This document shows positions 8,912 through 29,599 of a stretch of 29,599 nucleotides of DNA, piece by piece. Below the pieces are notes generated by a model. It was not told where the DNA came from, did not search any database, and saw nothing but the letters and a program-made list of their open reading frames with translations. Made by a program: the position numbers and the translations under genes. This DNA comes from a virus, in IMG/VR virus record IMGVR_UViG_3300029893_000051, positions 1-29,599 of that record. One strand, written 5' to 3'. Position 1 is the first letter of the stretch. Every line of letters starts with the position of its first letter.

Positions 8912-9210
8912 CCCCTCGGTGGCTGCGTGACGCCCTGCTCGTTGCGAAGCCTCGGATTGAAGCGAGAGAATCGCTGCGGCGCGTGATGGAGCTCGCGATC
9001 GGCTTCGGCTCGTTGCCGAAGGACGACAGGCAGTCAATATTGCGGGAATGGGAGCGGCTCGCTAAGGGGCCGCTTTCTCGCGCCCGGAGAGAGCGGCCGA
9101 AGATGTCGCTCGAGGATCAGGCGTCGATGTTCGCCGGGATCGGCGTGAAGGTGGTGAGGGAGAATGGCCGAGAGCCTGGGCCAAGCGGTACTGGAACTGA
9201 GGACCGATGA
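8471..9210 (+). CDS. Tail assembly chaperone, frameshifted long form (gpGT-like)
   Basis: Inferred -1 frameshift product of ~246 aa: bases 8471-8773 in the first frame, then 8773-9210 in the -1 frame. The -1 frame has a stop at 8749-8751 and no plausible start of its own before 8983, yet encodes a sensible helical protein from 8752 on (PADLGEIVAELQRFYGGRPQ, DWIVTPRWLRDALLVAKPRI, LPKDDRQSILREWERLAKGP). This is the expected T extension, which binds tail tube subunits and brings them to the tape measure. It overlaps the tape measure start by 47 bases. Confidence 0.8.
8768..8776 (+). other. Probable -1 ribosomal frameshift site in the tail chaperone gene
   Basis: Zero-frame codons are GCT TTT ACT. 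Because base 8770 is also T, a tRNA-Phe on TTT (8771-8773) can slip back one base and still read TTT. The window for the shift is narrow: the -1 frame is closed upstream by TAA at 8749-8751, and the zero frame turns into low complexity soon after. It is not a textbook XXXYYYZ heptamer, so the exact site is inferred. Confidence 0.6.
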
Positions 9211-12200
9211 TCAGGGACTGACCCAGGGGATTCGTGACGCTCGGCGCGAGGCCACGCAACTCGAGCACGACTTCGAGCGCGTCGGCACGAACCTCGTCAA
9301 GTTCCTGACGCTTCCTCTCGCCGCCGGCTTCGCGGCCGTCACGCACTTCCAGTCTGAGCAGCGTCGTGCGGGGCTCCTCCTCGAGGCGACCCTCCGGGGG
9401 GCCGGGATCGCCGGTGCAGGCGCCGCCGAGCGGCTGAAGGCGTACGCGACCCAGCTTCAGAACGTGACGACCATCGGCGACGAGGCGACGGTCGAGGCTC
9501 AGGCGCTCCTCGCAACCTTCCAACTCACCGAGCATCAGATCCGTTCTCTCACCCCGCGGGTGCAGAACCTGGCGACGACCTACGACATGGACCTCCGCAC
9601 GGCCGCTCTTCAGGTCGGCCGGGCCCTCACGTCGGGGGCCGGGGCTCTCTCGCGCTACGGCATCACGCTCTCGGAGGCGGAGCGGGAAGCGTTCGAGATG
9701 GGGAACACGACCGAGCGCGTCGCCATGCTCCTCCAGATCCTCGACAAGAACACCGGCGACTCGGCGCGCTTGATGCGCCAGACCGGCGTTGGCGCTCTCC
9801 AGGCGATGAAGAACGCCGCCGGCGACCTCGGCGAAGCGATCGGCGAGGTCTTGGAGCAGCCGACGATTGAGTTCTTCCAAGACCTCGAGGATCGGATCAA
9901 AGCGGCGACTGATGCGTGGCGAAGCCTCGACCCCGTCACGCAGCAGAGCATCCTGCGTTTCGCAGCGTGGTCGGCGGCTCTCGGCCCGGCTCTCATTCTG
10001 ATCGGGAAGCTGCCTTCCGTGCTTCGCCTCGTAACGGGCTTCCTCAGCGGACCGACCGGCTGGATCGCTCTCATCGGGCTTGCCGCCGGCGCCGTTTGGT
10101 CGCTCGTCTCGTCGCTTGAGACGCTCGAAGAACGGCTCGAGCGCATCGGAAAAACGGCCGACATCGCCAGGCTCGAGGCGGATCTCTCTCGTCTTCGCGA
10201 GGAGAGGGAGCGCCTGCAGGAAGTGATGGCGGACCCGTTCTTCTCCGAGTCGCAGCTCGCGGGTCGTACCCGGGAAGCGATGGCCAACCTCGACCGTGAG
10301 ATCGAGGCGACCGTGCGGCGGATTGAGGAGCTTCGGCAGAAGCAGGAGGAAGCGGCCCGGACCTCCACCGGCGGCACGCAGGAGACGACCAAGGCCGTCG
10401 AGCGCTGGCGCGAGGAAGTCGACAAGCTCGAGCAGGCGAACCGCCGCAACCAGGAGCGCATACTCAGCATCCTCGGGCTCTCCGACGCCCACGCGGACCA
10501 GGCAGAGTTCATCCGGTTCGTCGAGAACGAGCGCGTCCAGATCCTCGAATCGCAGATCGCCCAGCTCTCGCGACTCCGCCAGGTGAGCCAGGAGATCCTT
10601 AACACCGAGGTCCTGACCGCGGAAGAGGCCGACAGCATCCGGGCGCAGATGCAGCTTTGGAGCGAAGAAGCGGAGCACCTCCAAAAGCTCCTCGTGCTTG
10701 CGAACGAAGAGCTGCGACTTACGCAGCGTGACCGCGTCTTCGAAAAGATCGCCCGGGACGCCTCGCTTCTGCAGGCCAAACTCGAGGCGGGCACCTCCGA
10801 TCTGGGTACGCTCCTTGACCGGACCTTCGAACTGATCAACCACGTCGAAAGCCTCGAGGATGGCACCCTGCAATGGCACTTGGCGCTCCTCCAGGTTCTC
10901 GGCGTCCTCGATCAGATCCAGGACCGGATGGCGCCGGGTGGGCCGATCTCGGCGACGCTCTTCACGACGCCGCGCTTTGGAGCTCAGCTCGCCGTGCCCG
11001 AGCAGGAGGCGAGGGAGCCCAGGCTCTCGCTGGATGACATTGAGTTCCTCTTCAACCGTCTCCGTCTGGAGCAGCGGGCAGGTATCGTTGGCGACGAGGA
11101 GTTCGTTGGACGCTTGGCGGAACTCAGCACCGCCTTCTTCGATCTCATCGGCGGGGTCGAGAACCTCTCCGGCGCGAGCCACCGGCAGCTCGAACTCTTT
11201 GCCGCGCTCGAGGCGGCTGTGCGCCCGTTCTTCCGCGAAATCAAGGAGAAAACCGAGGAGGCCGAGGGCGAGGAGGCCGAGGGCCTCGAGGATCCGTTTG
11301 CCGACGCCGTAAACCTCCTGACGCTCGTCAACAGCGGCTTCGATGCGCTGGCTTCTCGATTGGGAGAAATTGACCCGGCACTGGGGGCGCTTGCCGATTC
11401 GCTGGAGATGACGTCCGACGGCTTCCGGTTCAACCCGCAAGAGCTTCTCGGCAACGCGCTCCAGTTCGCCGTGGGTGCGATCGTGGACCTCATCGACACG
11501 CGCGAGGCGGAGTTTCTGGCGCGTATCCGCGACGTTCCCGATCCGGGCACTGACGTGCTCGGCGTCGCTCAGTCGTTTCGGAACTTCGAAAATCTCGGCG
11601 GCAACGTTGAGGAGCGACGTCGACGGCTGCGCGAGTTGCAGCGACTCCAGCAGCAGCAGGACGTCCGCACGGCGCAAGGGGCCGCCTCCGGGGCGGCCCT
11701 TGGCATTGGGGTCGGTCTTCTGGCGAGCCTTGGTCCGTCCGGTCTGCTGCTTGCCGGGGCGGCGGGACTCCTGGCCGGAGGCGCCGTTGGCCGGCAAAAG
11801 GGACGCGACGAGTTCGGGCCCCAGATCCAAAAGACCGAGGAGCAGATCCGCGAGCTCGAGGAGGCGATCGAGGGCGCCCGGACGGAGCTGATCGACGCCC
11901 TCGGGGTGGCGGCGGATACGTTCGCCACCGGCATCCACGGCGCGATCGAACGGGCGAGCGTCGAGGGCATTCTGGACGACCCCGACGCCTTCCGGGCCTT
12001 CGAGAAGAACCTCGAGGCGAGCGTCGATTCGATCGTGCGGCGCGGCATCATCACGAGCTTCGTCGCCACCGTGTTTGAGCCTCAGATCACGGCCCTTGCA
12101 GAGCACGTGCAGAAGGCATTCCTCGGCGAAGGGCAGCTCGACTCGAGCGTGATCGAGGGTGTCCTCGGTCGGATCGCGGATGACTCCCGGGACCTGTTCG

Positions 12201-12583
12201 AGGTTCTAGACAACATGGGTCTTCTCGCCGAGGCGACCGGCGAGGTGGCGACCAAGATGCAAGACCTTTCTCGCAACCTCAACGTCCCGGAAGGGTTCAG
12301 GGTCGAGGCCATTCGGTTTTCCGCCGCTCGGCCGGAGATCCCGAGCTTTGATACCGGGGGGATCATGCCCTGGGACGGCCCGGCGATGCTGCACCGGGGC
12401 GAGCTGGTCCTCACGCCCGAGCAGCAGCGGTCGATGGGCGGAGATACGTTCATCTTCAACGTCAATGGCGCGAGGGACCCGAAGGAGACGGCGCGGGAGG
12501 TCATGCGCCAACTCCGGGCCCACAATGCCCAGCGTAGCGGGAATCCGTCTCTTGCGGCGCCGCCGCTCGTGACGGGGAGGTAA
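9164..12583 (+). CDS. Tail tape measure protein
   Basis: 1139 aa, the longest gene here; sets tail length and enters the host envelope at ejection. ATG 9164 lies inside the end of the chaperone extension; the site upstream (GTGAGGGAG) is weak, consistent with coupling. Features: helical N-terminus with TMP-family 'FLTLPLAAGFAAVTHFQSEQ'; hydrophobic segment ~297-320 (WIALIGLAAGAVWSLVSSLE); long coiled coils ~325-440 and ~450-560; second hydrophobic, Gly/Ala-rich segment ~846-876 (LGIGVGLLASLGPSGLLLAG) followed by coiled coil. It ends with a common TMP C-terminal motif (FDTGGIMPWDGPAMLHRGEL, VLTPEQQRSMGG). No peptidase or lysozyme domain was recognised. Confidence 0.95.
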   Translation: MAESLGQAVLELRTDDQGLTQGIRDARREATQLEHDFERVGTNLVKFLTLPLAAGFAAVTHFQSEQRRAGLLLEATLRGAGIAGAGAAERLKAYATQLQNVTTIGDEATVEAQALLATFQLTEHQIRSLTPRVQNLATTYDMDLRTAALQVGRALTSGAGALSRYGITLSEAEREAFEMGNTTERVAMLLQILDKNTGDSARLMRQTGVGALQAMKNAAGDLGEAIGEVLEQPTIEFFQDLEDRIKAATDAWRSLDPVTQQSILRFAAWSAALGPALILIGKLPSVLRLVTGFLSGPTGWIALIGLAAGAVWSLVSSLETLEERLERIGKTADIARLEADLSRLREERERLQEVMADPFFSESQLAGRTREAMANLDREIEATVRRIEELRQKQEEAARTSTGGTQETTKAVERWREEVDKLEQANRRNQERILSILGLSDAHADQAEFIRFVENERVQILESQIAQLSRLRQVSQEILNTEVLTAEEADSIRAQMQLWSEEAEHLQKLLVLANEELRLTQRDRVFEKIARDASLLQAKLEAGTSDLGTLLDRTFELINHVESLEDGTLQWHLALLQVLGVLDQIQDRMAPGGPISATLFTTPRFGAQLAVPEQEAREPRLSLDDIEFLFNRLRLEQRAGIVGDEEFVGRLAELSTAFFDLIGGVENLSGASHRQLELFAALEAAVRPFFREIKEKTEEAEGEEAEGLEDPFADAVNLLTLVNSGFDALASRLGEIDPALGALADSLEMTSDGFRFNPQELLGNALQFAVGAIVDLIDTREAEFLARIRDVPDPGTDVLGVAQSFRNFENLGGNVEERRRRLRELQRLQQQQDVRTAQGAASGAALGIGVGLLASLGPSGLLLAGAAGLLAGGAVGRQKGRDEFGPQIQKTEEQIRELEEAIEGARTELIDALGVAADTFATGIHGAIERASVEGILDDPDAFRAFEKNLEASVDSIVRRGIITSFVATVFEPQITALAEHVQKAFLGEGQLDSSVIEGVLGRIADDSRDLFEVLDNMGLLAEATGEVATKMQDLSRNLNVPEGFRVEAIRFSAARPEIPSFDTGGIMPWDGPAMLHRGELVLTPEQQRSMGGDTFIFNVNGARDPKETAREVMRQLRAHNAQRSGNPSLAAPPLVTGR

Positions 12584-13325: not shown

Positions 13326-13874
13326 ATGAGTACGACCACGACGAAGCTCAGCCTCAAGAAGCACGAGTTGACGGATCTCTGGTCGACCATCATCGCGGAC
13401 CAGAATGCGAACATGGACAAGCTCGACACCGAGGTCGGCCTGCTCGAGGCTCCTCCCGCAGCGAGGGTGTATCACGACGCGGCCCAGAGCATCGCAGACA
13501 GTGCCGAGACGGCGCTTGCGTTCAACCAAGAACGCTTCGACACGGACACGATGCACGACACGGCGACCAATAACTCCCGGATCAAAGCAACCACGGCCGG
13601 CAAGTACGTTATCTCGGCCAACGTCCAGTTCGCTTCAAACTCGACGGGGCATCGGTCGCTCATCATCCGCCTAAACGGGGCGACGCGCATTGCGTATCTG
13701 CGCGTTCCGGCCGTGTCGGGTGCGGTGACAATTCTCTCGGTGAGCACCGTTTACAACCTGGCCGCCAACGATTACGTCGAAGCGCTGGTGGTGCAGACGT
13801 CCGGTGGTGCGCTGAACGTCGAGGTGAACGGGAACGTCTCGCCCGAGTTCATGGCGATAAGGGTGGGTGACTGA
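13326..13874 (+). CDS. Tail fibre-type protein with C1q/TNF-like domain
   Basis: 182 aa, ATG 13326 with CGGGAGGTG upstream. Residues ~1-45 are helical (LKKHELTDLWSTIIADQNAN), suited to trimer formation or docking. Residues ~47-180 have the beta-jellyroll pattern of C1q-like domains: ARVYHDAAQSIADSAETALA, FNQERFDTDTMHD, TTAGKYVISANVQFASNSTG, SLIIRLNGATRIAYLRV, LAANDYVEALVVQTSGGALN. These domains trimerise and often bind host-surface ligands. Probably part of the tail tip or a short side fibre. Confidence 0.8.
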   Translation: MSTTTTKLSLKKHELTDLWSTIIADQNANMDKLDTEVGLLEAPPAARVYHDAAQSIADSAETALAFNQERFDTDTMHDTATNNSRIKATTAGKYVISANVQFASNSTGHRSLIIRLNGATRIAYLRVPAVSGAVTILSVSTVYNLAANDYVEALVVQTSGGALNVEVNGNVSPEFMAIRVGD

Positions 13875-15097: not shown

Positions 15098-15322
15098 ATG
15101 GCGATGAAGTGGCTTACCGGGGAGGAACGAGTAAATAGCTATTTGCTCCGCGTCCACTTGGACGAGTCGCGGGTCAACGAGGAGGGGAAGCCGCTTCCGG
15201 GCACCGTGTTCGAGGCCGAGTGGAGCAAGGACCAAGACCTAGAAGTCAGCAAGACCGAACACTGGCGACTCGCGGAGCATCACTTGGCACAAATGCAGTC
15301 GAAACCTTTAGTAATGGAGTAG
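15098..15322 (+). CDS. Small acidic hypothetical protein
   Basis: 74 aa; ATG 15098 preferred because GAGGTGA lies ~7 bases upstream. Sequence features: MAMKWLTGEERVNSYLLRVH, then FEAEWSKDQDLEVSKTEHWR and LAEHHLAQMQSKPLVME. Compact, charged, no membrane segment. No family recognised. It is the first gene of the AT-richer cassette following the fibre gene. Its early codons contain a near-perfect 20-bp palindrome (15129-15148) around AAATAGCTATTT. Confidence 0.65.
   Translation: MAMKWLTGEERVNSYLLRVHLDESRVNEEGKPLPGTVFEAEWSKDQDLEVSKTEHWRLAEHHLAQMQSKPLVME
15129..15148. repeat. 20-bp near-perfect palindrome
   Basis: The core AAATAGCTATTT (15133-15144) is a perfect 12-bp palindrome, extended on both sides to GAGT...GCTC with one mismatch. 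It lies within the start of the 74-aa gene. The 9-mer AGCTATTTG (15137-15145) recurs at 17787-17795, directly after the tyrosine recombinase gene. A recombinase or regulator site is possible but not shown. Confidence 0.4.
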
Positions 15323-15339
15323 CGCCCTTTAGTGGCACT
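15321..15339. repeat. Imperfect 19-bp direct repeat, left copy
   Basis: Matches 15941-15959 in 17 of 19 bases and in the same orientation (AGCGCCCTTTA then RTGSCACT). The two copies flank the segment with the 53-aa gene and the antisense DUF6941-like gene. The left copy begins at the final bases of the 74-aa gene. Bases 15324-15330 can also pair with 15345-15351 (with G-U pairs), covering the AAGGAGGG site of the 53-aa gene. Confidence 0.5.
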
Positions 15340-15356: not shown

Positions 15357-15518
15357 ATGCCCGAACCCCGAATGGATGAGACACAGCGCAACTTCAACAC
15401 ACCGACCATCGTCGTTCGTGCGAACGCCAGACAGACGGGCGCGTTCAGCCGAAGCACGAAGAAGCATCGCAACTTCAACAGGGCCAGCGTTTTATCGGTT
15501 GACGTGAAGGCTGGTTGA
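15357..15518 (+). CDS. Small basic hypothetical protein (53 aa)
   Basis: ATG 15357 with a strong AAGGAGGG (15343-15350) upstream. It starts MPEPRMDETQRNFNTPTIVV and contains the tetrapeptide RNFN twice (residues 11-14 and 38-41), with many Arg/Lys/Asn residues and no Cys. Family not recognised. Its 3' end overlaps the 3' end of the antisense DUF6941-like gene by 27 bases, so the two are convergent. The good ribosome site is the main support; amino acid sequence alone would not convince. Confidence 0.45.
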   Translation: MPEPRMDETQRNFNTPTIVVRANARQTGAFSRSTKKHRNFNRASVLSVDVKAG

Positions 15519-15860
15519 TGCCGCCTTCTTGTTGTCGATGTAGAGCGTGATACCGTGCAAACCAGGTTCGGCAACTTCAAATTCGAGATTGGCGATGAGC
15601 CATGCGAACTCGACGTCGTGTGGCAAAGAAAACGAGTCGATGCTCGCGGTCAAGACGGGGTTCCCGTGAGGGTCCCAGGCTCGGATCCGTAAATCCGAGA
15701 GTTCCCCCGGTTCTCCGAGTAGCCGACCAAACAGTACGCCGTGAAAGATGGCGGGCAAGTGGTCAATGGATGTGTGGTCGAAAATGCCGTGCGCGGTTGG
15801 TTTGTTGTGTTGCTCGTCGATTTCAACGTGCTCGCAAAGGAACATCCATTCGCAGGTCAA
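15492..15860 (-). CDS. DUF6941-like protein, copy 1 (antisense to tail genes)
   Basis: 122 aa. TTG 15860 is preferred over ATG 15845: GAGGAGG lies ~9 bases upstream, and the paralogue at 24925-25326 aligns from the same place (TCEWMFLCEH here, TVEWAHLCDY there). Shared features are the N-terminal E-W...L-C motif, a G-I-F strand (AHGIFDHTSI / LIGIFRVIWA), a middle strand with 'GEPGELSDLRIRAWDP', and the ending LHVNR / LDVNR. The pattern fits the DUF6941 family as I recall it: small beta-rich protein of unknown function. It is transcribed against the surrounding late genes and has its own leader with two competing stems, so independent expression is likely. Confidence 0.78.
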   Translation of the reverse strand: MTCEWMFLCEHVEIDEQHNKPTAHGIFDHTSIDHLPAIFHGVLFGRLLGEPGELSDLRIRAWDPHGNPVLTASIDSFSLPHDVEFAWLIANLEFEVAEPGLHGITLYIDNKKAASTSLHVNR

Positions 15861-15866
15861 GTGGAA

Positions 15867-15948
15867 CGCCCTCCTCTTGGTCTTCTCGGTGGCACGGGAG
15901 TCTTAGAGGAGGGCGCTCACATTTCCTGCTCTTGGAAGCGAGCGCCCT
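15867..15948 (-). promoter_or_regulatory. Leader with two mutually exclusive stems, one hiding the ribosome site
   Basis: On the minus-strand transcript, stem P1 pairs 15948-15940 with 15918-15910 (9 bp, AGGGCGCTC/GAGCGCCCT). Stem P2 pairs 15915-15905 with 15877-15867 (11 bp, CGCCCTCCTCT/AGAGGAGGGCG). They share 15910-15915 and so cannot coexist. The 3' arm of P2 contains the GAGGAGG site of the DUF6941-like gene starting at 15860. P1 therefore frees the site and P2 hides it. Pairings are perfect; the regulatory meaning is inferred. Confidence 0.6.
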
Positions 15949-15959
15949 TTAATGCCACT
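15941..15959. repeat. Imperfect 19-bp direct repeat, right copy
   Basis: Right partner of 15321-15339 (17 of 19 identical). Bases 15941-15948 also form most of one arm of stem P1 in the antisense leader. The repeats could be scars of insertion of the intervening segment, or duplicated regulatory elements. Confidence 0.5.
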
Positions 15960-16023: not shown

Positions 16024-16218
16024 ATGGAGGCCAACGAAACCAGGAACGTGCCGATGGGGTACAAGAGAGACCGGTACGGTGTATACGTCCCCACCGGCGG
16101 CGTCGCGCCAATTGACGACGTCGGTCATCACGTAGCGTCCCCGGTCACACGAATCACCGAACTGGAATCACGTGTTCAAACCCTGGAGGCTATCGTCGAG
16201 CGGGGAGTCGAGAAGTAG
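16024..16218 (+). CDS. Small hypothetical protein with C-terminal coiled coil
   Basis: 64 aa; ATG 16024 chosen because TAGGAGGATC is directly upstream, although the frame opens earlier. First half: MEANETRNVPMGYKRDRYGV, YVPTGGVAPIDDVGHHVASP. Second half is a short heptad-type helix (VTRITELESRVQTLEAIVER). Similar short proteins with a Gly/Pro head and coiled-coil tail occur near phage tail fibre genes. No function can be assigned. Its 3' end overlaps the 3' end of the antisense zinc-ribbon gene. Confidence 0.62.
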   Translation: MEANETRNVPMGYKRDRYGVYVPTGGVAPIDDVGHHVASPVTRITELESRVQTLEAIVERGVEK

Positions 16219-16539
16219 TAGGTGTATCTCGAAGAGGGACACCTGGCCGCAGTGATTGCAGATTAGCACGAGGCAGAGCAAGACCGGGGCGCCATCGTAG
16301 AGCGACTTGGTACGGTCGGGGCTAACGAGACCTAAAGGCTCGGGAAGTATGCTCCATCGCCGACGACCACAGTATTGGCATGTTCTGTTGTCGGTTCGTC
16401 GTTGAAGATTGCGAATCGCGGCTTTGATCTCGTCCTCGGAAAACTTGGGCAGTTTACTCGCCTCCCGTTGTGAATTGTGCGACTGGACACCGCGCGATTC
16501 GAGTGATTGGGAGGCGTTTCCTTTTGGAGGACCGGCCAC
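16168..16539 (-). CDS. Zinc-ribbon protein (antisense to tail genes)
   Basis: Up to 123 aa from GTG 16539. The core is a two-pair zinc ribbon: C-Q-Y-C-G-R at about residue 54 and C-N-H-C-G at about 93, separated by ~36 residues with a Trp (RRRWSILPEP) and hydrophobic strands (APVLLCLVLICNHCG), as in short bacterial zinc-ribbon proteins of unknown role. GTG 16539 lacks a ribosome site; a CTG at 16452 has GGGAGG 8 bases upstream and would give a ~95-aa protein starting LPKFSEDEIKAAIRNLQRRT, which looks more natural. The start is therefore open. Like the DUF6941-like gene, it points against the late genes. Confidence 0.68.
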   Translation of the reverse strand: MAGPPKGNASQSLESRGVQSHNSQREASKLPKFSEDEIKAAIRNLQRRTDNRTCQYCGRRRWSILPEPLGLVSPDRTKSLYDGAPVLLCLVLICNHCGQVSLFEIHLLLLDSPLDDSLQGLNT

Positions 16540-16547
16540 AGGCCGGT
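16531..16547. other. Perfect hairpin near the recombinase leader
   Basis: ACCGGCC/GGCCGGT with a 3-base loop, no T tract following. It lies between the antisense zinc-ribbon gene (covering its GTG 16539) and the leader of the recombinase. It could be a structural boundary; nothing more can be said. Confidence 0.35.
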
Positions 16548-16593
16548 TGAATCTATTCGGTGGAGGCTAGGGAACTCGAGCCCGAAAAGCCCT

Positions 16594-16648
16594 CTCCCAG
16601 GGGCCTGCCTCCCCACATAAACCTGGGAGGCAACTATGGGAGGTTGCC
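16594..16648 (+). promoter_or_regulatory. Recombinase leader with three competing stems
   Basis: Three pairings use overlapping bases: S1 CTCCCAGG (16594-16601) with CCTGGGAG (16622-16629); S2 TGCCTCCC (16606-16613) with GGGAGGCA (16625-16632); S3 GGCAAC (16629-16634) with GTTGCC (16643-16648). S1 and S2 cover the GGGAGG at 16625-16630 serving ATG 16636. S3 places ATG 16636 and the second GGGAGG (16638-16643, for ATG 16654) in its loop and arm. Translation may depend on which stem forms. Confidence 0.45.
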
Positions 16649-17781
16649 GACAAATGAATACGCCCGAAGTGTCCCGCGTCGTGCCGATCCATCGGCAGGG
16701 CGTGGACGAACTCGCGTCTCTTTTTGAGGCGGTCCTGTTCGCCAGCGGCCGTTCGCTCACTCTTGAGCGGCTGGCCGAGACGGCCGGAATCGAGATGCCG
16801 CAGGCGAGACGCGTGTTGGAAGTGCTCCGCGGTCATGGCGACCAGCGGGGCATTTGTGTTTCCTGGGACGGCCGCCAGGTGAGCCTGACGGTGAATCCCC
16901 GGTTCGCCGGCGCCGTGTACGAGGCGTCCCGGACGGACGTCCAGCGGAGTCTCGACCTGATCGAAGAGTACCTGAGCGTCCAGAAGCAAAGGGGGCGCCG
17001 GGCCGACACGCTCCGGTCGTACGGCCTCTTCCTCCGTCGCTTCGTCCGGGAGGTTGGGCGTCCGGTCGACGAGGTCAGCACTCAGGACGTCCGGCGCTTT
17101 CTGGCCGCCGAGGAGCGGAAGGGGAACGGGCTCTCGACGATTGCCTCGAAGATCCATCAGCTCTCGTCGCTCTACAAGTGGATGGAGCGCGAGGAGCTGA
17201 TCGACAAGAGCCCCATGCGAAAGATCGACGCGCCCCGGCTCGGTAAGCGGCCGCCGCGCTACCTCACCCACGAGGAAATCGAGCAGGTGCGAGACGTCGC
17301 CAAAGGGATGGACCGGCTGCTCTTCGAGGTGCTCTACAGCTCGGCGATCCGGGTGAGCGAAGCCGTCAAGCTCGATTGGAGCGACGTCGACCTGAACGCG
17401 AAGAGTCTCATCGTTCGGGACGGCAAGGGCGGGAAGTCCCGGCAGACGCTCTTCTCGACTCGGGCCGTGCTGCTCCTCCGGCGCTACCAGGAGAAGCGCC
17501 AGGACACGAACCCGTGGGTGTTCCAATCGCAGTTTCGACAGCGCATGTCGAAGAACAGCATCGAGCGGCGCATGCGGATCCTGGGAGAGAAGGCGGGGCT
17601 CAGAGGGCGGCTTACCCCGCACCGGCTCCGCCACAGCGCGGCGAAGCATTTACGGGACGCCGGGATGCCGGCGGACGTCCTGCAGGCGCTGCTCGGGCAC
17701 GAAGATATCCGCACGACCCAAGGCTACAGCGGCCTGCCGGTCCAGGAGATCGGGCAGTATTACCGGGCCGTGTTCCCGTAA
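16636..17781 (+). CDS. Tyrosine recombinase (XerC/D-like) with N-terminal ScpB-like winged helix
   Basis: 381 aa from ATG 16636 (GGGAGG 5 bases upstream) or 375 aa from ATG 16654. Residues ~24-100 resemble the first winged helix of segregation protein ScpB: LFEAVLFASGRSLTLERLAE, a second helix, RGICVSW, then a QVSLTVNPRFAGAVYEA wing. Residues ~105-195 are the SAM-like core-binding domain (SLDLIEEYLSVQKQRGRRAD). Residues ~215-381 are the catalytic domain with a full set of residues: Arg in SAIRVSEAVKL, Lys in DGKGGKSRQT, H-x-x-R in LTPHRLRHSAAKHL, His in LLGHEDIRTT, and Tyr in TTQGYSGL. It should be active. The gene lies between fibre and hub genes, not in the lysogeny module, which has its own serine recombinase. 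Xer recombinases and ScpB both act in chromosome segregation; the fusion is unusual. Confidence 0.88.
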   Translation: MGGCRQMNTPEVSRVVPIHRQGVDELASLFEAVLFASGRSLTLERLAETAGIEMPQARRVLEVLRGHGDQRGICVSWDGRQVSLTVNPRFAGAVYEASRTDVQRSLDLIEEYLSVQKQRGRRADTLRSYGLFLRRFVREVGRPVDEVSTQDVRRFLAAEERKGNGLSTIASKIHQLSSLYKWMEREELIDKSPMRKIDAPRLGKRPPRYLTHEEIEQVRDVAKGMDRLLFEVLYSSAIRVSEAVKLDWSDVDLNAKSLIVRDGKGGKSRQTLFSTRAVLLLRRYQEKRQDTNPWVFQSQFRQRMSKNSIERRMRILGEKAGLRGRLTPHRLRHSAAKHLRDAGMPADVLQALLGHEDIRTTQGYSGLPVQEIGQYYRAVFP

Positions 17782-17786
17782 CAAGA

Positions 17787-17805
17787 AGCTATTTGGCGCG
17801 AAATA
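17787..17805. other. Dyad directly after the tyrosine recombinase, candidate core site
   Basis: TATTT (17790-17794) and AAATA (17801-17805) form an inverted pair around the six bases GGCGCG, six bases after the recombinase stop. Arms around a 6-base centre recall tyrosine-recombinase core sites, but the dif consensus is not matched. AGCTATTTG (17787-17795) is shared with the palindrome at 15133-15145. This is a weak candidate. Confidence 0.25.
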
Positions 17806-20246: not shown

Positions 20247-20639
20247 ATGCAGCTAACAGAGCACTTCCACGCCAACGAGTTTCGCTGCAAGTGCCGAGCC
20301 AAAAAGCTCGACGTCGACGACATCTGGTGCCATGGCGAGGTCTGGGTGCATCACGAGCTCGTCATCCTCCTCGAGACGCTCCGGCAGCGGCTTCAGAAGC
20401 CCATTACTGTGTTGAGCGGCTGTCGGTGTCCCGCCTACAACCGCTTCGTCGGCGGCGCCCGAATGAGCCAGCACAAGCGAGGCACCGCGGCCGACATCAG
20501 CGTGAAAGGGGTCACGCCCGTCGAGGTGGCTCTCGAGGCACAGAAGGTCGGGTTTCGAGGGATCAAGGTGTATCCGACCTTCACCCACGTTGACATCCGA
20601 GAAGGGAACGTGTGGCATGTCATCCCGCAGCGCACGTGA
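20247..20639 (+). CDS. Endolysin, peptidase M15 family
   Basis: 130 aa, ATG 20247, GGGAGG upstream. Probable zinc carboxypeptidase/endopeptidase cutting the peptide part of peptidoglycan. Family motifs are intact: LTEHFHANEFRCKCRAKK at the N-terminus, TVLSGCRCPAYNRFVGGARM, the zinc motif SQHKRGTAADI (His and Asp ligands), and FTHVDIREG with the second His. No signal peptide or separate wall-binding domain, so it should need a holin to cross the membrane. The next gene starts inside its 3' end in another frame. Confidence 0.93.
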   Translation: MQLTEHFHANEFRCKCRAKKLDVDDIWCHGEVWVHHELVILLETLRQRLQKPITVLSGCRCPAYNRFVGGARMSQHKRGTAADISVKGVTPVEVALEAQKVGFRGIKVYPTFTHVDIREGNVWHVIPQRT

Positions 20640-22855: not shown

Positions 22856-24292
22856 CTATTTGGGAATAACTGTAACTGTGCCGTCGAGGTGAAGTGTAAC
22901 GGACTCATACAACTCGTGGACCCAGACCTTCCGCTCTTGCGGGATCATGTCGTGCCACAAGGACGGCAGCGATGAGAGTGCTTCGACCAGATCCTCCAAG
23001 TGGATCGTCGACGTCTCCGCGTCCTGAGCCTCCGAAAGCTGCTTTTGTAGGTCCGCCTCCCGTGCGACGAGCGACTCCGTCCGTTCTTTGAGGTCCTCGA
23101 GGCTGATCGCCCCTGATTCAAACGCATCATACCAGCGAGCTTTCTTCTGAGCGATCGAGCGCAGCTCTCGCCGGACTGCGTCAAGATCTTGGTTTACTGG
23201 CGGTCGCCGCGCCGCGAGCATCGTCTCGAGTGTCTTGCGATCGGACAGGGCCCGTGTAGCGTGAAGGAAGGCGCGTTCGACCTGCGCCTGCGGTGCAAGC
23301 GCTCTGTCGCACGTCTTGAGGCGGAATCGATTCTGGCAACCGTAGTAGTACCGCTTTCGTGAAGGGTGCGAGCGATCGTCGGTGTAGCACTTGCCGCTCA
23401 TTCTCCCGCCGCACTTGCCGCAGAAAAGAACACCGGACAGCGGATAAATGTTCCCCCGCGTACGGACCTTGCCCACCTTGCGGTGCTTCATCAGCGCCTG
23501 AGCCTTCTCGAATGTCTCGTCATCGACGATCGGCTCATTGACGACGTCGGAAAGCACCATCGCCTCGGGGGTGCGGGGCTTGCGTGTTCCCTGCGGCTTT
23601 ACTTTTTTGAAGGCGAGACGACCTGTATAGACGGGGTTGCGAAGAATGTATCCGACGGTGAACTGGGCCCAACGGGCTCCGTTCTGTGTCTTCAGGCCCC
23701 TCTCGTTGAGCATCGTTGCAATCGCGATCAGACCGTGACCGTTGCAGTAGGCCTGAAACATGTCACGCACGATCGCCGCTTCCGCCGGCTCGACAAGGAG
23801 CTTTCCGTTCTCGGGTCGATACCCGTAGGGCCGAGGGCCGCCCTGCCAGTTCCCTTGGCGAATGGCCTCGGTCATCCCCTCCCGCACGCGCTCGCCGAGG
23901 TTCTCGCGTTCCCACTGCGCGAGGGCGGCAACGAGCGTGACGAAGAGCCGGCCGATCGCCGTCGTCGTGTCGTATGGCTCGGTGACGGACCGGAAGAGGG
24001 CGCCCGTTGTCTCAAGGCGTTGCAGGAGCTGATGAAGGTCGAGGACGCTGCGCGTGAGCCGATCCAGGCGCCAGACGACGACGATGTCGTCCCGCGAGAC
24101 ATCCTCGAGGAGGCGCTGCAGTGCCGGCCGGTCCGTGTCCTTCGCGCTGTATCCCTCATCGAGGTACTCGTCGGCGATCGTCCAGCCTTGCGAGCGGCAG
24201 AACTGGCGGCAAGCACGCCGCTGAGCGGAGATGGAGAAGCCCTCTTGGGCCTGCTCTTGGGTTGAGACTCGGCAGTAAATACGCGCGTCCAC
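22856..24292 (-). CDS. Large serine recombinase (phage integrase)
   Basis: 478 aa. GTG 24292 is chosen: the resolvase domain begins at once (VDARIYCRVSTQEQAQEG) and GAGAGGA lies upstream; the open frame before it is non-coding in character. Residues ~1-140 are the catalytic domain with the nucleophile Ser in YCRVST and the Arg motif VVWRLDRLTRSVLDL. Residues ~165-270 form the recombinase domain (PRPYGYRPENGKLLVEPAEA, RNPVYTGRLAFKKV). Residues ~300-345 hold the zinc ribbon (LSGVLFCGKCGGRMSGKCYT, GCQNRF, TCDRAL) and ~370-450 the coiled coil (DAVRRELRSIAQKKARWYDA). It should integrate the phage at an attB site; reversal normally needs a directionality factor. Confidence 0.95.
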   Translation of the reverse strand: MDARIYCRVSTQEQAQEGFSISAQRRACRQFCRSQGWTIADEYLDEGYSAKDTDRPALQRLLEDVSRDDIVVVWRLDRLTRSVLDLHQLLQRLETTGALFRSVTEPYDTTTAIGRLFVTLVAALAQWERENLGERVREGMTEAIRQGNWQGGPRPYGYRPENGKLLVEPAEAAIVRDMFQAYCNGHGLIAIATMLNERGLKTQNGARWAQFTVGYILRNPVYTGRLAFKKVKPQGTRKPRTPEAMVLSDVVNEPIVDDETFEKAQALMKHRKVGKVRTRGNIYPLSGVLFCGKCGGRMSGKCYTDDRSHPSRKRYYYGCQNRFRLKTCDRALAPQAQVERAFLHATRALSDRKTLETMLAARRPPVNQDLDAVRRELRSIAQKKARWYDAFESGAISLEDLKERTESLVAREADLQKQLSEAQDAETSTIHLEDLVEALSSLPSLWHDMIPQERKVWVHELYESVTLHLDGTVTVIPK

Positions 24293-24341
24293 TGAATTGG
24301 ACTTCCTCTCGTCGGAGACCGCTAAGACGATCTCGGGGTTC

Positions 24342-24378
24342 TGAGACGGACACCCTGTTTCTAAAGTGTCGTGAGACA
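24342..24378. promoter_or_regulatory. Cluster of repressor-like operator motifs upstream of the integrase
   Basis: Between the divergent serine recombinase and 84-aa gene lie TGAGAC (24342-24347), GACAC (24349-24353) and TGTCGTGAGACA (24367-24378), the last with TGTC/GACA dyad symmetry. The same words (TGAGACA, GACAC) make up the symmetric operator at 26997-27048, so the phage repressor may also bind here. No clear -35/-10 pair was found. Confidence 0.45.
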
Positions 24379-24408
24379 GTTTGACGAAGAAAGAAAGGAG
24401 AACTTCAA

Positions 24409-24663
24409 ATGGGCCAAGAAAATCACAACTCCCAGGACCAGGATGGACGCAGAAAGAAAGGGGTTGATCGCGCGATGCCTGGTGCAACAACTTTCGAGGT
24501 AGTTGTGCGTGAAGACGGTCGAATTGAACGCAGAGACATGACTCAATCATCCCCTGAAAGAGAGCCGCTGCCGTCAACTTGGAGAGTCAGGATGACGCAG
24601 AGTCATCCTTCCGAGGAGGAGGTTCAGGCTCCGACTCCTCAGCCGACCGAAACGGGACCGTAG
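24409..24663 (+). CDS. Small polar hypothetical protein, divergent from the integrase
   Basis: 84 aa, ATG 24409 with AAAGGAGA ~8 bases upstream. Highly polar and probably disordered at both ends (MGQENHNSQDQDGRRKKGVD; EEEVQAPTPQPTETGP). The middle, GATTFEVVVREDGRIERRDM, looks like a short beta-hairpin. Family not recognised. Its leader lies in the operator cluster upstream of the integrase, and its 3' end overlaps that of the convergent membrane-protein gene by 77 bases. A small partner of the integrase (for example a directionality factor) is conceivable, but unsupported by motif. Confidence 0.55.
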   Translation: MGQENHNSQDQDGRRKKGVDRAMPGATTFEVVVREDGRIERRDMTQSSPEREPLPSTWRVRMTQSHPSEEEVQAPTPQPTETGP

Positions 24664-24928
24664 CTTCACCAGTGCCGACATTGATCACGATGCTGCTCTT
24701 CTGCGAAAGGCTCAGCTGCTGACGGACGTACGCTTCAACGTCAGCAGCTTTCTTTTTGGCCTCCTCCGACGCGTTTATGGCCTCGTCTGATACAATCTTG
24801 GCGTCCTTCGACACACTTTTGGCGGTTGACGCCGCATGCTTCGCCATCCACGAATTAAGTAGCGAAACGACGGACACCGCCGCAATTACGACGGTCGCCC
24901 ACTCGTCAGGCGATAAATCCCACTTCAC
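24587..24928 (-). CDS. Single-pass membrane protein with coiled coil
   Basis: 113 aa, GTG 24928 overlapping the stop of the DUF6941-like gene (GTGA), hence translationally coupled. MKWDLSPDEWATVVIAAVSV continues VSLLNSWMA as one membrane helix (~11-28), then a coiled coil (AASTAKSVSKDAKIVSDEAI, NASEEAKKKAADVEAYVRQQ), then SSIVINVGTGEATV and an acidic, Pro-rich end. Family not recognised. Expressed from the lysogeny strand, so it may act at the lysogen's membrane; exclusion of other phages is one possibility. Confidence 0.68.
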   Translation of the reverse strand: MKWDLSPDEWATVVIAAVSVVSLLNSWMAKHAASTAKSVSKDAKIVSDEAINASEEAKKKAADVEAYVRQQLSLSQKSSIVINVGTGEATVPFRSAEESEPEPPPRKDDSASS

Positions 24929-25326
24929 GGCCGTGACTCCTGACGCGCGGCCCGTCGGTTCACATCCAGCGGGACTACCTTACTAACTACGCCATCCGCG
25001 GAGATCCTAAACTCGTAAGGGCCAAAATCGGGAAACAGAACGTTGTCGAGCGTGATTGTGAAGATGTGGCGTCCTGCCTCGTTAAAGGTGACGGCGTCAC
25101 TTTCGATGTCGATGAGTGGGTCTGAGCGATCGGGCCGAACGAGTTCAAGTTGGAGACGCGTGGTTTCTCCCGGTTTACCGGCCACTTCGAAAGCCAGCGT
25201 GAAACGTGTATGCTGTGCTGGGGTGCGATGAGCCCATATCACGCGAAAGATACCGATCAGGCACGCCTTTTCCCCTTTGTCAAAAAACGCGTAATCACAG
25301 AGATGGGCCCACTCAACGGTCGTCAT
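24925..25326 (-). CDS. DUF6941-like protein, copy 2 (lysogeny module)
   Basis: 133 aa; two adjacent ATGs (25329, 25326) follow GAAGGAGG; 25326 gives 7-base spacing. Features: TTVEWAHLCDYAFFDKGEKA, LIGIFRVIWAHRTPAQHTRF, TLAFEVAGKPGETTRLQLEL, DNVLFPDFGPYEFRISADGV, and the end VPLDVNRRAARQ. It is homologous to the antisense gene at 15492-15860 (shared EW..LC start, GIF strand, GE(P/T)..L..R middle and VNR end). Beta-rich, no membrane segment, function unknown. It forms a two-gene operon with the membrane protein downstream. Having two diverged copies in one phage is notable. Confidence 0.82.
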   Translation of the reverse strand: MTTVEWAHLCDYAFFDKGEKACLIGIFRVIWAHRTPAQHTRFTLAFEVAGKPGETTRLQLELVRPDRSDPLIDIESDAVTFNEAGRHIFTITLDNVLFPDFGPYEFRISADGVVSKVVPLDVNRRAARQESRP

Positions 25327-25393
25327 CATCGTTCCTCCTTCGACGTTGATCATCTAGATTTGAACGCACTTAGCTGCAATGAACCTGAAAGCC

Positions 25394-27628: not shown

Positions 27629-27827
27629 GCCGGTCGTCGTCGACATCACGAGGTCTCGCCTCGCATTCGAGATCGTCTGCTCGGTGATCGAGCGGCGGAA
27701 ACGAGGGGTGGTGAGAGCGGATGAAGCTGAGGATGCCGAAGGCGGCGCTGGCGCTGCCACGGGCGAAGAAGCCGGCGGCCCTGCGGAACCTGAAGCGGGC
27801 CTACGACGCCGGGCGCAAGCTGGCTGA
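27609..27827 (+). CDS. Small hypothetical protein, early operon
   Basis: 72 aa from GTG 27609, overlapping the end of the HTH gene by 20 bases. The first half looks like real protein (LQPEPVVVDITRSRLAFEIV, CSVIERRKRGVV); the second half is low-complexity Ala/Gly/Glu and overlaps another candidate gene in a different frame. Ribosome site is weak (GGGGGTGGGCGAC). No family recognised. It may be real, with its tail an accident of the GC-rich overlap. Confidence 0.4.
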   Translation: MSTLQPEPVVVDITRSRLAFEIVCSVIERRKRGVVRADEAEDAEGGAGAATGEEAGGPAEPEAGLRRRAQAG

Positions 27828-27861
27828 GACCGGCAACCGTCGCAGCAAGCGGGAGTCGTGA
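27721..27861 (+). CDS. 46-aa basic protein, early operon
   Basis: ATG 27721, GGTGGTGAG upstream; stop overlaps the next start (GTGA). Product MKLRMPKAALALPRAKKPAA, then helical and very basic (LRNLKRAYDAGRKLAETGNR), so nucleic-acid contact is possible. Coupling to the following gene is the main support. No family recognised. Confidence 0.5.
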   Translation: MKLRMPKAALALPRAKKPAALRNLKRAYDAGRKLAETGNRRSKRES

Positions 27862-28112
27862 TCACCGGCCGAGCACTGGCGGTGCTGTATCGGCTCCTGA
27901 TGGACGAGCTCGCCCGGCGCCGTTGCAGACGATGCCGGGGGCGATGGGGGCCGGTGACGTGGGTATCGCCCACAGGCCGCACCTACTGCGAGCACTGCTC
28001 CCGGATCATCCGGCGCAGCGTGGAGGAGCGGATCGACGAGGAACGGCTGCGGCGGCTCAGGCAGCGCTGGCGGCGGATCGTGGACGAGGACGACGGCGGA
28101 AAGGAGCGGTGA
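27858..28112 (+). CDS. Small protein with two CxxC pairs (probable zinc binding)
   Basis: 84 aa, GTG 27858 in a GTGA overlap. Residues ~22-50 hold C-R-R-C and C-E-H-C pairs (RRCRRCRGRWGPVTWVSPTG, RTYCEHCS), a short zinc-ribbon or treble-clef-like unit, followed by a strongly basic helix (VEERIDEERLRRLRQRWRRI). Such proteins are common in phage early regions as DNA- or RNA-binding factors. Exact role unknown. The next gene starts 3 bases after its stop. Confidence 0.68.
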   Translation: MITGRALAVLYRLLMDELARRRCRRCRGRWGPVTWVSPTGRTYCEHCSRIIRRSVEERIDEERLRRLRQRWRRIVDEDDGGKER

Positions 28113-28115
28113 CCG

Positions 28116-28361
28116 ATGGCCAAGCGGACCTACTTCTACGAAGGCGGCACACTGAAGTGCCGCGTGGGGTCCCGTGTCTACGACGTCATCGCCGACAACA
28201 CCGGGAAGCACCCGCAGGACCGCATCAAGCTCGATGAGACGGAGGAGAGCATCCGCCGGCACCAGAGCGTGACGGAACGGCTTAACGGCGGGCGAGAAGG
28301 GAGTGATCGGGATGGCAGTGACACAGGCGGAGCTCGTGACGAGGACCGGCCAGGCGAGTAA
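28116..28361 (+). CDS. Small hypothetical protein, early operon
   Basis: 81 aa, ATG 28116, AAAGGAGCGG upstream. The N-terminal half is folded in appearance (MAKRTYFYEGGTLKCRVGSR, VYDVIADNTGKHPQDRIKLD); the C-terminal ~35 residues are charged and probably disordered. Its 3' end overlaps the next gene by 50 bases in another frame. Family not recognised. Confidence 0.62.
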   Translation: MAKRTYFYEGGTLKCRVGSRVYDVIADNTGKHPQDRIKLDETEESIRRHQSVTERLNGGREGSDRDGSDTGGARDEDRPGE

Positions 28362-28776
28362 GGTTCGGCCCCCCGAGGTCGTCTGCACGATCGGCCGGGG
28401 ACCCAGCTCTCATATATACGGCGCCCCGATGGACGGAAACAGCCTCGGGCACTACACGGTCGGCTTTCGGCAGCGAAACGACGGCTCGTGGGTCGAGCAA
28501 CGCAAGCTGCCGACAGTCCAACACCTCCGGGCCCGCGTCGGTGGCTGGACCGGGGATCGCATCGCCGGTCTTATCACGACTGAGATCTGGTCCCGGTTGC
28601 GGTGCGAGCCTGACGATCTGGGACCCGGAACGTTCGAACGGCTCGTCAAGGACGCCGTCTGGGCGGTGCACAGGAACGACCGCCTGCCCAAGGAGGCCGC
28701 CCGGTTTGTGGTCGATGAGCACCTGCCGAACCCCGTGGCGAGGCTCCGGGGCGTGTCGATTGGAGTGGAGTGGTGA
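28312..28776 (+). CDS. Hypothetical protein, early operon
   Basis: 154 aa; ATG 28312 (GAAGGGAG ~8 bases upstream) preferred over GTG 28303. N-terminal part: MAVTQAELVTRTGQASKVRP, then DGNSLGHYTVGFRQRNDGSW. The C-terminal part is helical (WTGDRIAGLITTEIWSRLRC, TFERLVKDAVWAVHRNDRLP, KEAARFVVDEHL). No membrane segment or catalytic motif. Family not recognised; the neighbours suggest a role in early phage DNA metabolism or host takeover. Confidence 0.68.
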   Translation: MAVTQAELVTRTGQASKVRPPEVVCTIGRGPSSHIYGAPMDGNSLGHYTVGFRQRNDGSWVEQRKLPTVQHLRARVGGWTGDRIAGLITTEIWSRLRCEPDDLGPGTFERLVKDAVWAVHRNDRLPKEAARFVVDEHLPNPVARLRGVSIGVEW

Positions 28777-28778
28777 CC

Positions 28779-29045
28779 ATGGCCATCAACAAGCTGGACC
28801 CGCACTTTCACGCCATGCTTCCGTCGGCACTCCTCGAGAGCGACGACTGGCCGCGGGAGTCGGACTACGAGTACCAGCGTCGCATCGGAGCGGCGCACGT
28901 CGACCTGGCGGAGTACGGATCGGTCGTTATCGACGACTACCGGCTGGCCATCGACGTCCTGACGTCGGCTCCGGTTCGGTGCGGGCTGGAAGGGTCGCCT
29001 GCCGGCGGATACCGGGTGTACGAGCTCAAGAACCCGGTCAGATGA
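28779..29045 (+). CDS. Hypothetical protein, early operon
   Basis: 88 aa; ATG 28779, 2 bases after the preceding stop. Features: MAINKLDPHFHAMLPSALLE, WPRESDYEYQRRIGAAHVDL, AEYGSVVIDDYRLAIDVLTS, GGYRVYELKNPVR. Mixed alpha/beta, acidic, no recognised family. The earlier in-frame GTGs (28770, 28773) lie within the preceding gene and are less likely starts. Confidence 0.62.
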   Translation: MAINKLDPHFHAMLPSALLESDDWPRESDYEYQRRIGAAHVDLAEYGSVVIDDYRLAIDVLTSAPVRCGLEGSPAGGYRVYELKNPVR

Positions 29046-29063
29046 AGGGAGGTGAAGCGACGG

Positions 29064-29255
29064 ATGCCGCGATCTGAATTGCGGGAGATCGCAAAGGGCG
29101 CTCCAGGGTGGAGGAGGCTCGTCGAGCACCTGCACAACGAAGCTGAGTTGGACGCTTACGACGAGGACCTCATCGGCTACGCCGTGGACGAGCTCGAGCC
29201 AGTAGGGCAATGGCTGGTGACCAATACGCCCCGTCCCTCTGATTGTACCCCATGA
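29064..29255 (+). CDS. Small acidic hypothetical protein, early operon
   Basis: 63 aa; ATG 29064 preferred because GGGAGG (29047-29052) is ~11 bases upstream and GTG 29052 would sit on that site. Product MPRSELREIAKGAPGWRRLV, EHLHNEAELDAYDEDLIGYA, VDELEPVGQWLVTNTPRPSD: helical, acidic. Family not recognised. Its last codons lie in a long hairpin (29228-29268). Confidence 0.58.
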   Translation: MPRSELREIAKGAPGWRRLVEHLHNEAELDAYDEDLIGYAVDELEPVGQWLVTNTPRPSDCTP

Positions 29256-29268
29256 CGGGGGACGGGGC
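29228..29268 (+). other. Hairpin across the stop codon before the Gam-like gene
   Basis: GCCCCGTCCC (29228-29237) pairs perfectly with GGGACGGGGC (29259-29268), 21-base loop, no T tract. It ends 4 bases before the AAGGAGG site (29272-29278) of the next gene, so it may limit read-through or shape translation there. Confidence 0.5.
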
Positions 29269-29288
29269 AACAAGGAGGTCAATACGGG

Positions 29289-29599
29289 ATGTCAGTTGCC
29301 GAAGAGTACGTTGGCTTCATCGAGCGACAGGAGCAGGTCACGGAGTTCGATCAGGGCTTCGTGATCGACAACGACCGCAAGGCGGAGTGGGCGCTCAAGA
29401 AGATCGCCTTCGCCGAGCGGCGCATCAAAGAACGCCAGGAGTTCGTTCAGGCCGAGATCGAGCGCCTCCAGCAGTTCCTCGAGGCCGAGATCGCACAGCA
29501 GCAGCGCACGATCGACTTCATGACCGGCCACCTCGAGGCGTACTTCCGCCGGCTCGACGAGTCGGGCGCGACCGCAGGGAAGAAGAGCTACCGCCTACC
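29289..29599 (+). CDS. Gam/Gp157-like early protein (3' end outside window)
   Basis: First 103 residues of a protein cut by the window edge. ATG 29289 with CAAGGAGG upstream. The sequence is a long charged coiled coil: IDNDRKAEWALKKIAFAERR, IKERQEFVQAEIERLQQFLE, AEIAQQQRTIDFMTGHLEAY, then GKKSYRL at the edge. 'A..KI...E..I...........I..I..W/FLE.E.......I.F....L..Y......' is the pattern of the Mu Gam host-nuclease inhibitor and siphovirus Gp157 groups. These act early in lytic growth, often beside recombination genes, which probably follow outside the window. Confidence 0.75.
   Translation, partial: MSVAEEYVGFIERQEQVTEFDQGFVIDNDRKAEWALKKIAFAERRIKERQEFVQAEIERLQQFLEAEIAQQQRTIDFMTGHLEAYFRRLDESGATAGKKSYRL

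Follow-up and report, generated by a model that had tools for sequence, protein, structure and literature searches.

A phage tail-module gene predicted to encode a Xer-type tyrosine recombinase with an ScpB winged helix, preceded by an int-alpA-type RNA leader

The window, that is, the whole 29,599-nt stretch of DNA analysed here (virus record IMGVR_UViG_3300029893_000051), carries in its tail module a gene for a predicted Xer-type tyrosine recombinase (YR) with an N-terminal domain of the ScpB type. The fusion is referred to below as ScpB-YR. The gene, its surroundings and the domains of its product are the following:

15492-15860, reverse strand: cargo gene of family DUF6941 (Pfam, E 3e-13), between two copies of a 19-nt motif
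16524-16552, forward strand: putative weak sigma-A-like promoter, TTGGAG-17-TTGAAT, read from the sequence just 5' of the leader
16560-16630, forward strand: int-alpA-type structured RNA leader (Rfam RF02996, E 3.8e-5)
16654-17781, forward strand: recombinase gene with its probable true start, ATG 16654 (375 aa)
16702-16893, forward strand: winged helix of the ScpB type, residues 17-80 when counted from ATG 16654 (Pfam, PDB profile, AlphaFold2 with Foldseek)
16897-16989, forward strand: long helix, residues 82-112, that connects the winged helix with the core DNA-binding domain (AlphaFold2 model, mean pLDDT 87.8)
16966-17193, forward strand: core DNA-binding, SAM-like domain (Pfam Phage_int_SAM_1)
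17260-17730, forward strand: Xer-type catalytic domain (Pfam Phage_integrase; invariant columns; best Foldseek match XerA 4a8e)
17350 (R), 17425 (K), 17620 (H), 17629 (R), 17698 (H) and 17725 (Y), forward strand: first bases of the codons for the catalytic residues
17807-17838, forward strand: likely intrinsic terminator 3' of the recombinase (GAGCCGTCCC..GGGGCGGCTCTTT), read from the sequence
22856-24577, reverse strand: large serine integrase that this phage encodes separately (Pfam Resolvase, Recombinase and Zn_ribbon_recom)

A second record, IMGVR_UViG_2710264500_000009, is identical to the window over positions 1-25868, and its other end overlaps window positions 27710-29596 at 99.6%. The two virus records (G001: L009, L010 and the window) are therefore, as judged from these overlaps, one circularly permuted phage with a joint span of about 38.5 kb. 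The tail module of the window includes a tape-measure gene (9164-12583), a gene for a virion structural protein (13326-13874) and an endolysin gene (20247-20639), and the ScpB-YR gene sits between the first and the last of these. A first-pass annotation, made from the letters of this DNA, had placed the gene in the tail module, which holds, and had labelled its immediate neighbours as 'fibre' and 'hub', for which the Pfam search returned no family match. The full serine integrase that it had reported elsewhere in the phage was confirmed by the three Pfam families given above.

The stretch around the DUF6941 cargo gene is lower in G+C (0.56-0.58 vs about 0.65), and a second DUF6941 gene lies near the serine integrase (24925-25353, reverse strand). 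Directly before the recombinase promoter, an open reading frame at 16168-16539 (reverse strand) shows a CxxC..CxxC zinc-ribbon-like pattern and has no Pfam match. Far from the locus, an inverted repeat of about 82 nt (2029-2115 and 2596-2677, 96-100%) occurs inside the portal/head-morphogenesis frame 493-2712; one arm looks as if the native sequence coding for the C-terminus had been copied in inverse orientation, and the same is found in the twin record. Either this repeat is an artefact, from assembly or from amplification, or the segment is invertible.

An uninterrupted open reading frame of 381 codons spans 16636-17781 on the forward strand. The true start is probably ATG 16654 rather than ATG 16636, because the latter lies inside the leader hairpin that contains the ribosome-binding site and because the relatives L231 and L029 start at the matching place. 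In the 381-aa protein, Pfam recognises SMC_ScpB at residues 30-106 (E 6e-7, 29.6 bits vs a cut-off of 27.4), followed by Phage_int_SAM_1, a SAM-like core-binding domain, at 111-186 (E 6e-9), and by Phage_integrase, the catalytic domain, at 209-365 (E 4e-41). The complete XerC/D-type catalytic set claimed in the first-pass annotation is present: R239, K264, H329, R332, H355 and Y364 occur in the correct order (R, K, H-x-x-R, H, Y) and are invariant across the aligned recombinases. By its sequence, the product of 16654-17781 is a Xer-type tyrosine recombinase with all six catalytic residues, a set that suggests DNA cleavage and strand exchange through Y364. The AlphaFold2 model of the full-length protein (pLDDT 87.8) shows the winged helix, the long helix, the core-binding domain and the catalytic domain in turn, and its best PDB match in Foldseek is the archaeal XerA 4a8e (E 2e-14). 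XerA is also the best NCBIfam match, with 194 of 220 bits, followed by XerC (184 of 335) and XerD (176 of 330); ScpB-YR falls below every Xer equivalog cut-off among these. A few nucleotides past the stop codon, at 17790-17805, the near-palindrome TATTTGGCGCGAAATA was observed.

The identity of the N-terminal domain was assessed by sequence profiles and by predicted fold. As a single sequence, the window protein gives thin support in NCBIfam (ScpB, E 0.1) and in the PDB (ScpB, E 0.05), and relatives were therefore sought. Both independent relatives of full length are also matched by SMC_ScpB (whole protein, E 1e-10 and 3e-6; N-terminus alone, E 2e-11 and 2e-6); the second of them, the third sequence of the set, reaches 27.2 bits as a whole, just below the cut-off of 27.4, and 27.9 bits, just above it, with the N-terminus alone. 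A profile of three N-terminal domains compared with PDB sequences retrieved 3w6k (1.5e-4), 3w6j (4e-4), 4i98 (6e-4) and 6juv (0.01), all of them ScpB, before the first non-ScpB family at E 0.019. The AlphaFold2 model of this domain (pLDDT 85.7, from an alignment of three sequences only) found ScpB structures at all of ranks 1-11 in the PDB (Foldseek, best E 8e-4, TM up to 0.73), and a search of a viral structure library with it named no recombinase among the matches listed. No arm-binding or unrelated winged helix fits better, since all other winged-helix Pfam families stay below their own cut-offs on the ScpB-YR N-domains. Only the first half of ScpB is represented: the second winged helix is absent, the Pfam match stopping at profile position 81 of 160 with the recombinase domains coming next, and the TIGR00281 ScpB equivalog scores 12.2 bits, far under its cut-off of 89.2. 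Taken together, Pfam, the PDB profile and the predicted fold are three independent supports for a genuine ScpB N-terminal winged helix, in line with the ScpB-like domain proposed from the sequence at the outset. One of the top structure matches, 3w6k, is a dimer of ScpB N-domains bound to a ScpA peptide, and for this reason it is plausible, by analogy, that ScpB-YR dimerises via this part or docks to host ScpA/SMC.

Relatives of the fusion are scarce. A peptide-word search with the window protein returned only the second record of the same virus in IMG/VR and no relative in GTDB genomes, and the peptide words of the N-terminal domain gave no relative in phages or plasmids. A recombinase found via other phage YRs (L029) is 53% identical over the YR part and has no ScpB domain. 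The alignment of this sequence with the window protein led to L231, in the metagenome-assembled genome (MAG) 'Firmicutes bacterium ZCTH02-B6' (Bacillota), which matches the window protein from end to end, the ScpB part too, at 52% identity. Among 73 genomes of the class of L231, a single further ScpB-YR was present (G055/L316, 43% identical), and 398 genomes of the phylum yielded, besides more distant YRs, only a sister without ScpB (G387/L324). No additional members came from the genome classes to which the sister YRs belong, where an empty result proves little. In the tree, the three ScpB-YRs and the two sisters without ScpB, L029 and L324, form one clade (100/99), within which the three ScpB forms group together (85/89); this is compatible with a single gain of the ScpB domain. 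The relatives point to a Bacillota host. In two further genomes (G408 and G446), the YRs L325 and L326 have a different helical N-terminus and an apparent diverged int-alpA-like leader, too weak for Rfam to detect, whose loop has a partner of its own. The architecture is thus rare yet recurrent, occurring in this phage (two records), in a Bacillota MAG and in a third genome, and a literature search found no published account of a tyrosine recombinase fused to the winged helix of an SMC partner; the first-pass annotation had considered that it might prove common and already characterised.

Members of the clade are located in tail modules in the window, L231, L029 and L316. L231 has a tape-measure gene on one side and tail assembly genes on the other, the L029 gene comes after a tail collar fibre gene, and L316 is followed by a gene whose product is homologous (55%) to the tail-tip protein of L231 in the C-terminal part of the latter.

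The genomes of the window, L231 and L029 are dissimilar, yet the approximately 90 nt upstream of their recombinase genes are alike. An int-alpA-type leader stands directly upstream of the gene in four of the five clade members (the window, L231, L029 and L316), with RF02996 scores of 35.4, 35.3, 32.9 and 44.4 bits, respectively, against a gathering score of 35.8. The promoter has counterparts in relatives (TTGACT-17-TAAAAT and TTGACG-17-TAGAAT). An inverted repeat, ACCGGCC-ACA-GGCCGGT, occupies window positions 16530-16548 within the spacer of the putative promoter and is possibly an operator or an upstream terminator. The elements that bear on the working of the leader are these:

16594-16601, forward strand: P3 loop CTCCCAGG, which could pair with copy 1 or copy 2 (read from the sequence; pairing statistics)
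16622-16629, forward strand: copy 1, CCTGGGAG, the predicted 8-nt partner of the P3 loop (pairing analysis)
16637-16643, forward strand: copy 2, TGGGAGG, the Shine-Dalgarno region and predicted alternative 6-nt partner (pairing analysis)

The P3 loop of the window is complementary either to copy 1 or to TGGGAG of copy 2, and copy 2 is held within a hairpin, GGCAAC/GTTGCC (16629-16634/16643-16648). Pairing was evaluated in 36 leaders that are less than 60% alike in P3, with 1000 permutations of the partners. The mean longest complementarity was 5.17 nt between the loop and copy 1 (at most 4.00 in the permutations) and 5.08 nt between the loop and copy 2 (at most 4.33), and 14 leaders had 5 nt or more of complementarity with each partner, a count that never exceeded 6 in the permutations. 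Since the two pairings are mutually exclusive, the simplest reading is a translational switch, and the complementarity suggests that the P3 loop alternates between copy 1 and the ribosome-binding site. Minimum-free-energy folding of single leaders was uninformative (z -0.2 to -1.7) because the method does not model pseudoknots.

Leaders of this kind extend well beyond recombinases. A pattern scan of IMG/VR for the int-alpA core matched at least 120 stretches, and among the 80 matches listed the gap length is 5 in 52 and 7 in 17; such a distribution is far from uniform, and the leader family is therefore real and widespread. It precedes many kinds of phage genes, most often those of HNH endonucleases and DUF1376 proteins (48 scanned). 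On the viral contigs L111-L230, the RNA likewise appears as a 5' leader of HNH/NUMOD endonucleases, DUF1376 proteins and others. That it is a general feature of YRs in Bacillota phages was ruled out, as it was found at 1 of 79 YR loci. Of the discoveries at this locus, the leader may have the wider reach.

A 19-nt direct repeat with the consensus AGCGCCCTTTArTGsCACT, for which 0.01 match is expected by chance, brackets the cargo gene:

15321-15339, forward strand: candidate recombination site, copy 1, AGCGCCCTTTAGTGGCACT, with a near-identical counterpart at the corresponding position in L231
15941-15959, forward strand: candidate recombination site, copy 2, in direct orientation, AGCGCCCTTTAATGCCACT (window repeat)

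The motif, which like the RNA leader had gone unnoticed in the first-pass annotation, was spotted by inspection, and its support comes from two genomes. Between the window copies, 2 of the 19 letters differ. L231 has one copy, one letter off copy 1, between a tail-module gene and the leader; it is the only zero-mismatch match in the 2.8 Mb genome for a pattern that was loosened at that letter after L231 had been seen. The same MAG contains a second copy of the locus, in which 94% identity breaks off at the start of the motif, within its first three letters, and similarity picks up again inside the recombinase gene at 79%; this breakpoint is one event, with 3-nt microhomology. The motif was not found in L029, and a role as a widespread site was ruled out, other IMG/VR hits being chance-like or in unrelated sequence. 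No recombined form of the window locus was seen, both phage records being identical here, and no convincing shufflon-type inverted repeats lie beside the recombinase in the window, L231, L327, L328 or L029. The motif can be read as a 7-nt spacer with a short arm on either side, the arms being imperfect inverted repeats, a layout known from lambda-type core sites. The evidence supports the 19-nt motif as a candidate crossover site, short of proof. The first-pass annotation had pointed to sites near 15133 and 17790, which share only about 9 nt; 15321-15339 and 15941-15959 are the better-supported candidates.

These observations can be brought together by considering ScpB-YR as a site-specific recombinase of the tail locus, of the Xer/Rin kind, that gained an ScpB winged helix and acts on local sites. 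We give this explanation an even chance of being right, and local DNA rearrangement is the best-supported function of the protein. The gene would be transcribed from its own promoter within the tail module, and its translation would be gated by the leader, depending on whether the P3 loop pairs with copy 1 or with the ribosome-binding site in copy 2. The enzyme would then bind short sites beside its own gene and exchange strands via Y364. The likely sites are the 19-nt repeats, and the enzyme would therefore insert, delete or replace small cassettes next to tail genes rather than integrate the prophage, a task that the separate serine integrase could carry out. Connected with the core-binding domain through a single long helix, the ScpB winged helix would substitute for an N-domain of the arm-binding or helical type and would most likely pair protomers or hold the synaptic complex together, given that the ScpB N-domain dimerises. 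Rearrangement of the neighbouring tail genes is, of the three roles put forward in the first-pass annotation, the most plausible one, with indirect support from the location, the repeated motif, the rearranged MAG copy and the precedent of Rin.

The gene and its leader could instead be a self-contained mobile unit that hops among phage tail modules with no benefit to the phage, as a free-standing homing endonuclease does. The unit has its own promoter, leader and terminator, occurs in unrelated tail contexts (L029, L231 and L316), shares its kind of leader with HNH/NUMOD endonucleases of many phages and adjoins the 19-nt motif. However, no defined ends or target duplication surround it as a whole, and the tail position is kept in every context examined, which fits a tail function equally well; we consider such a unit unlikely. 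Also doubtful is a second or alternative prophage integrase that would act at a host site, the serine integrase being non-functional or acting elsewhere. The full catalytic set would allow it, and the Bacillota phage TPELB_ph1 has, between its tail genes and its lysis genes, a Xer-like YR that carries the annotation 'integrase'; but a complete large serine integrase is already encoded, ScpB-YR belongs to the late tail region, there is no tRNA in the window or the twin record and, apart from the 19-nt motif, no obvious attP-like repeat is found beside the gene. A segregation-linked resolvase, in which the ScpB domain docks on host ScpA/SMC and the enzyme resolves phage multimers or uses host dif, seems improbable: 3w6k ranks among the top structure matches, and xerD and scpAB are neighbouring genes in several bacteria, but a search of the window for dif-like TTATGTTAA half-sites with up to 1 mismatch found none, which leaves the earlier suggestion of host dif use unsupported, just the first of the two winged helices of ScpB is present, and ScpB-YR is rare and found in tail loci, whereas dimer resolution should not depend on tail genes.

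A recombinase that rearranges its own tail locus could be part of something larger, namely a tail-diversification module in which the ScpB winged helix controls synapsis of the YR (or tethers it to host SMC-ScpAB), the two-state int-alpA switch sets the output of the enzyme and small gene cassettes enter or leave at the 19-nt sites next to the tail genes. This fuller version is tentative, and rather unlikely to be correct in all its parts.

Among known systems, XerA, XerC and XerD share with ScpB-YR the catalytic and core-binding domains, XerA being the closest by structure and by NCBIfam; they differ in that ScpB-YR has the additional ScpB domain, a location among phage tail genes and no dif-like site that could be found. 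ScpB itself, the SMC-kleisin partner of the KITE family, corresponds to the N-terminal domain in its first winged helix, by profile and by fold, whereas its second winged helix is replaced in ScpB-YR by the recombinase. In the case of the int-alpA RNA, the three-way-junction core CUAG/CGAAAAG/CCUG is matched in the leaders and L316 passes the gathering score, although the window copy stays 0.4 bits under it. Rfam lists this RNA as an sRNA; here it appears as a 5' leader, and a second stretch with which it could pair covers the ribosome-binding site. A literature search found no functional study of the int-alpA RNA, and its function now becomes directly testable, as mutations in a reporter can disrupt and then re-establish each of the two alternative predicted pairings.

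The closest precedent is Rin, a predicted tyrosine invertase of the tail locus in Bifidobacterium prophages, which serves a shufflon, is distinct from the integrase, has an XerD-like core without an arm-binding domain and has 11-bp sites (PMC6109161). Like Rin, ScpB-YR is a YR that a phage encodes in its tail/receptor-binding region, apart from its integrase; both have an XerD-like core, lack an arm-binding domain and have short candidate crossover sites close by (PMC6109161). Rin adjoins an array of inverted receptor-binding segments with its 11-bp sites, whereas ScpB-YR has two direct 19-nt copies around a cargo gene (PMC6109161), and no inverted-repeat array of receptor-binding segments of the Rin type lies near its gene. 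An ScpB domain, present in ScpB-YR, goes unmentioned in the description of Rin, whose authors left open how synapsis and direction are controlled in armless recombinases (PMC6109161). The ScpB-YR fusion offers a natural case in which this control can be addressed.
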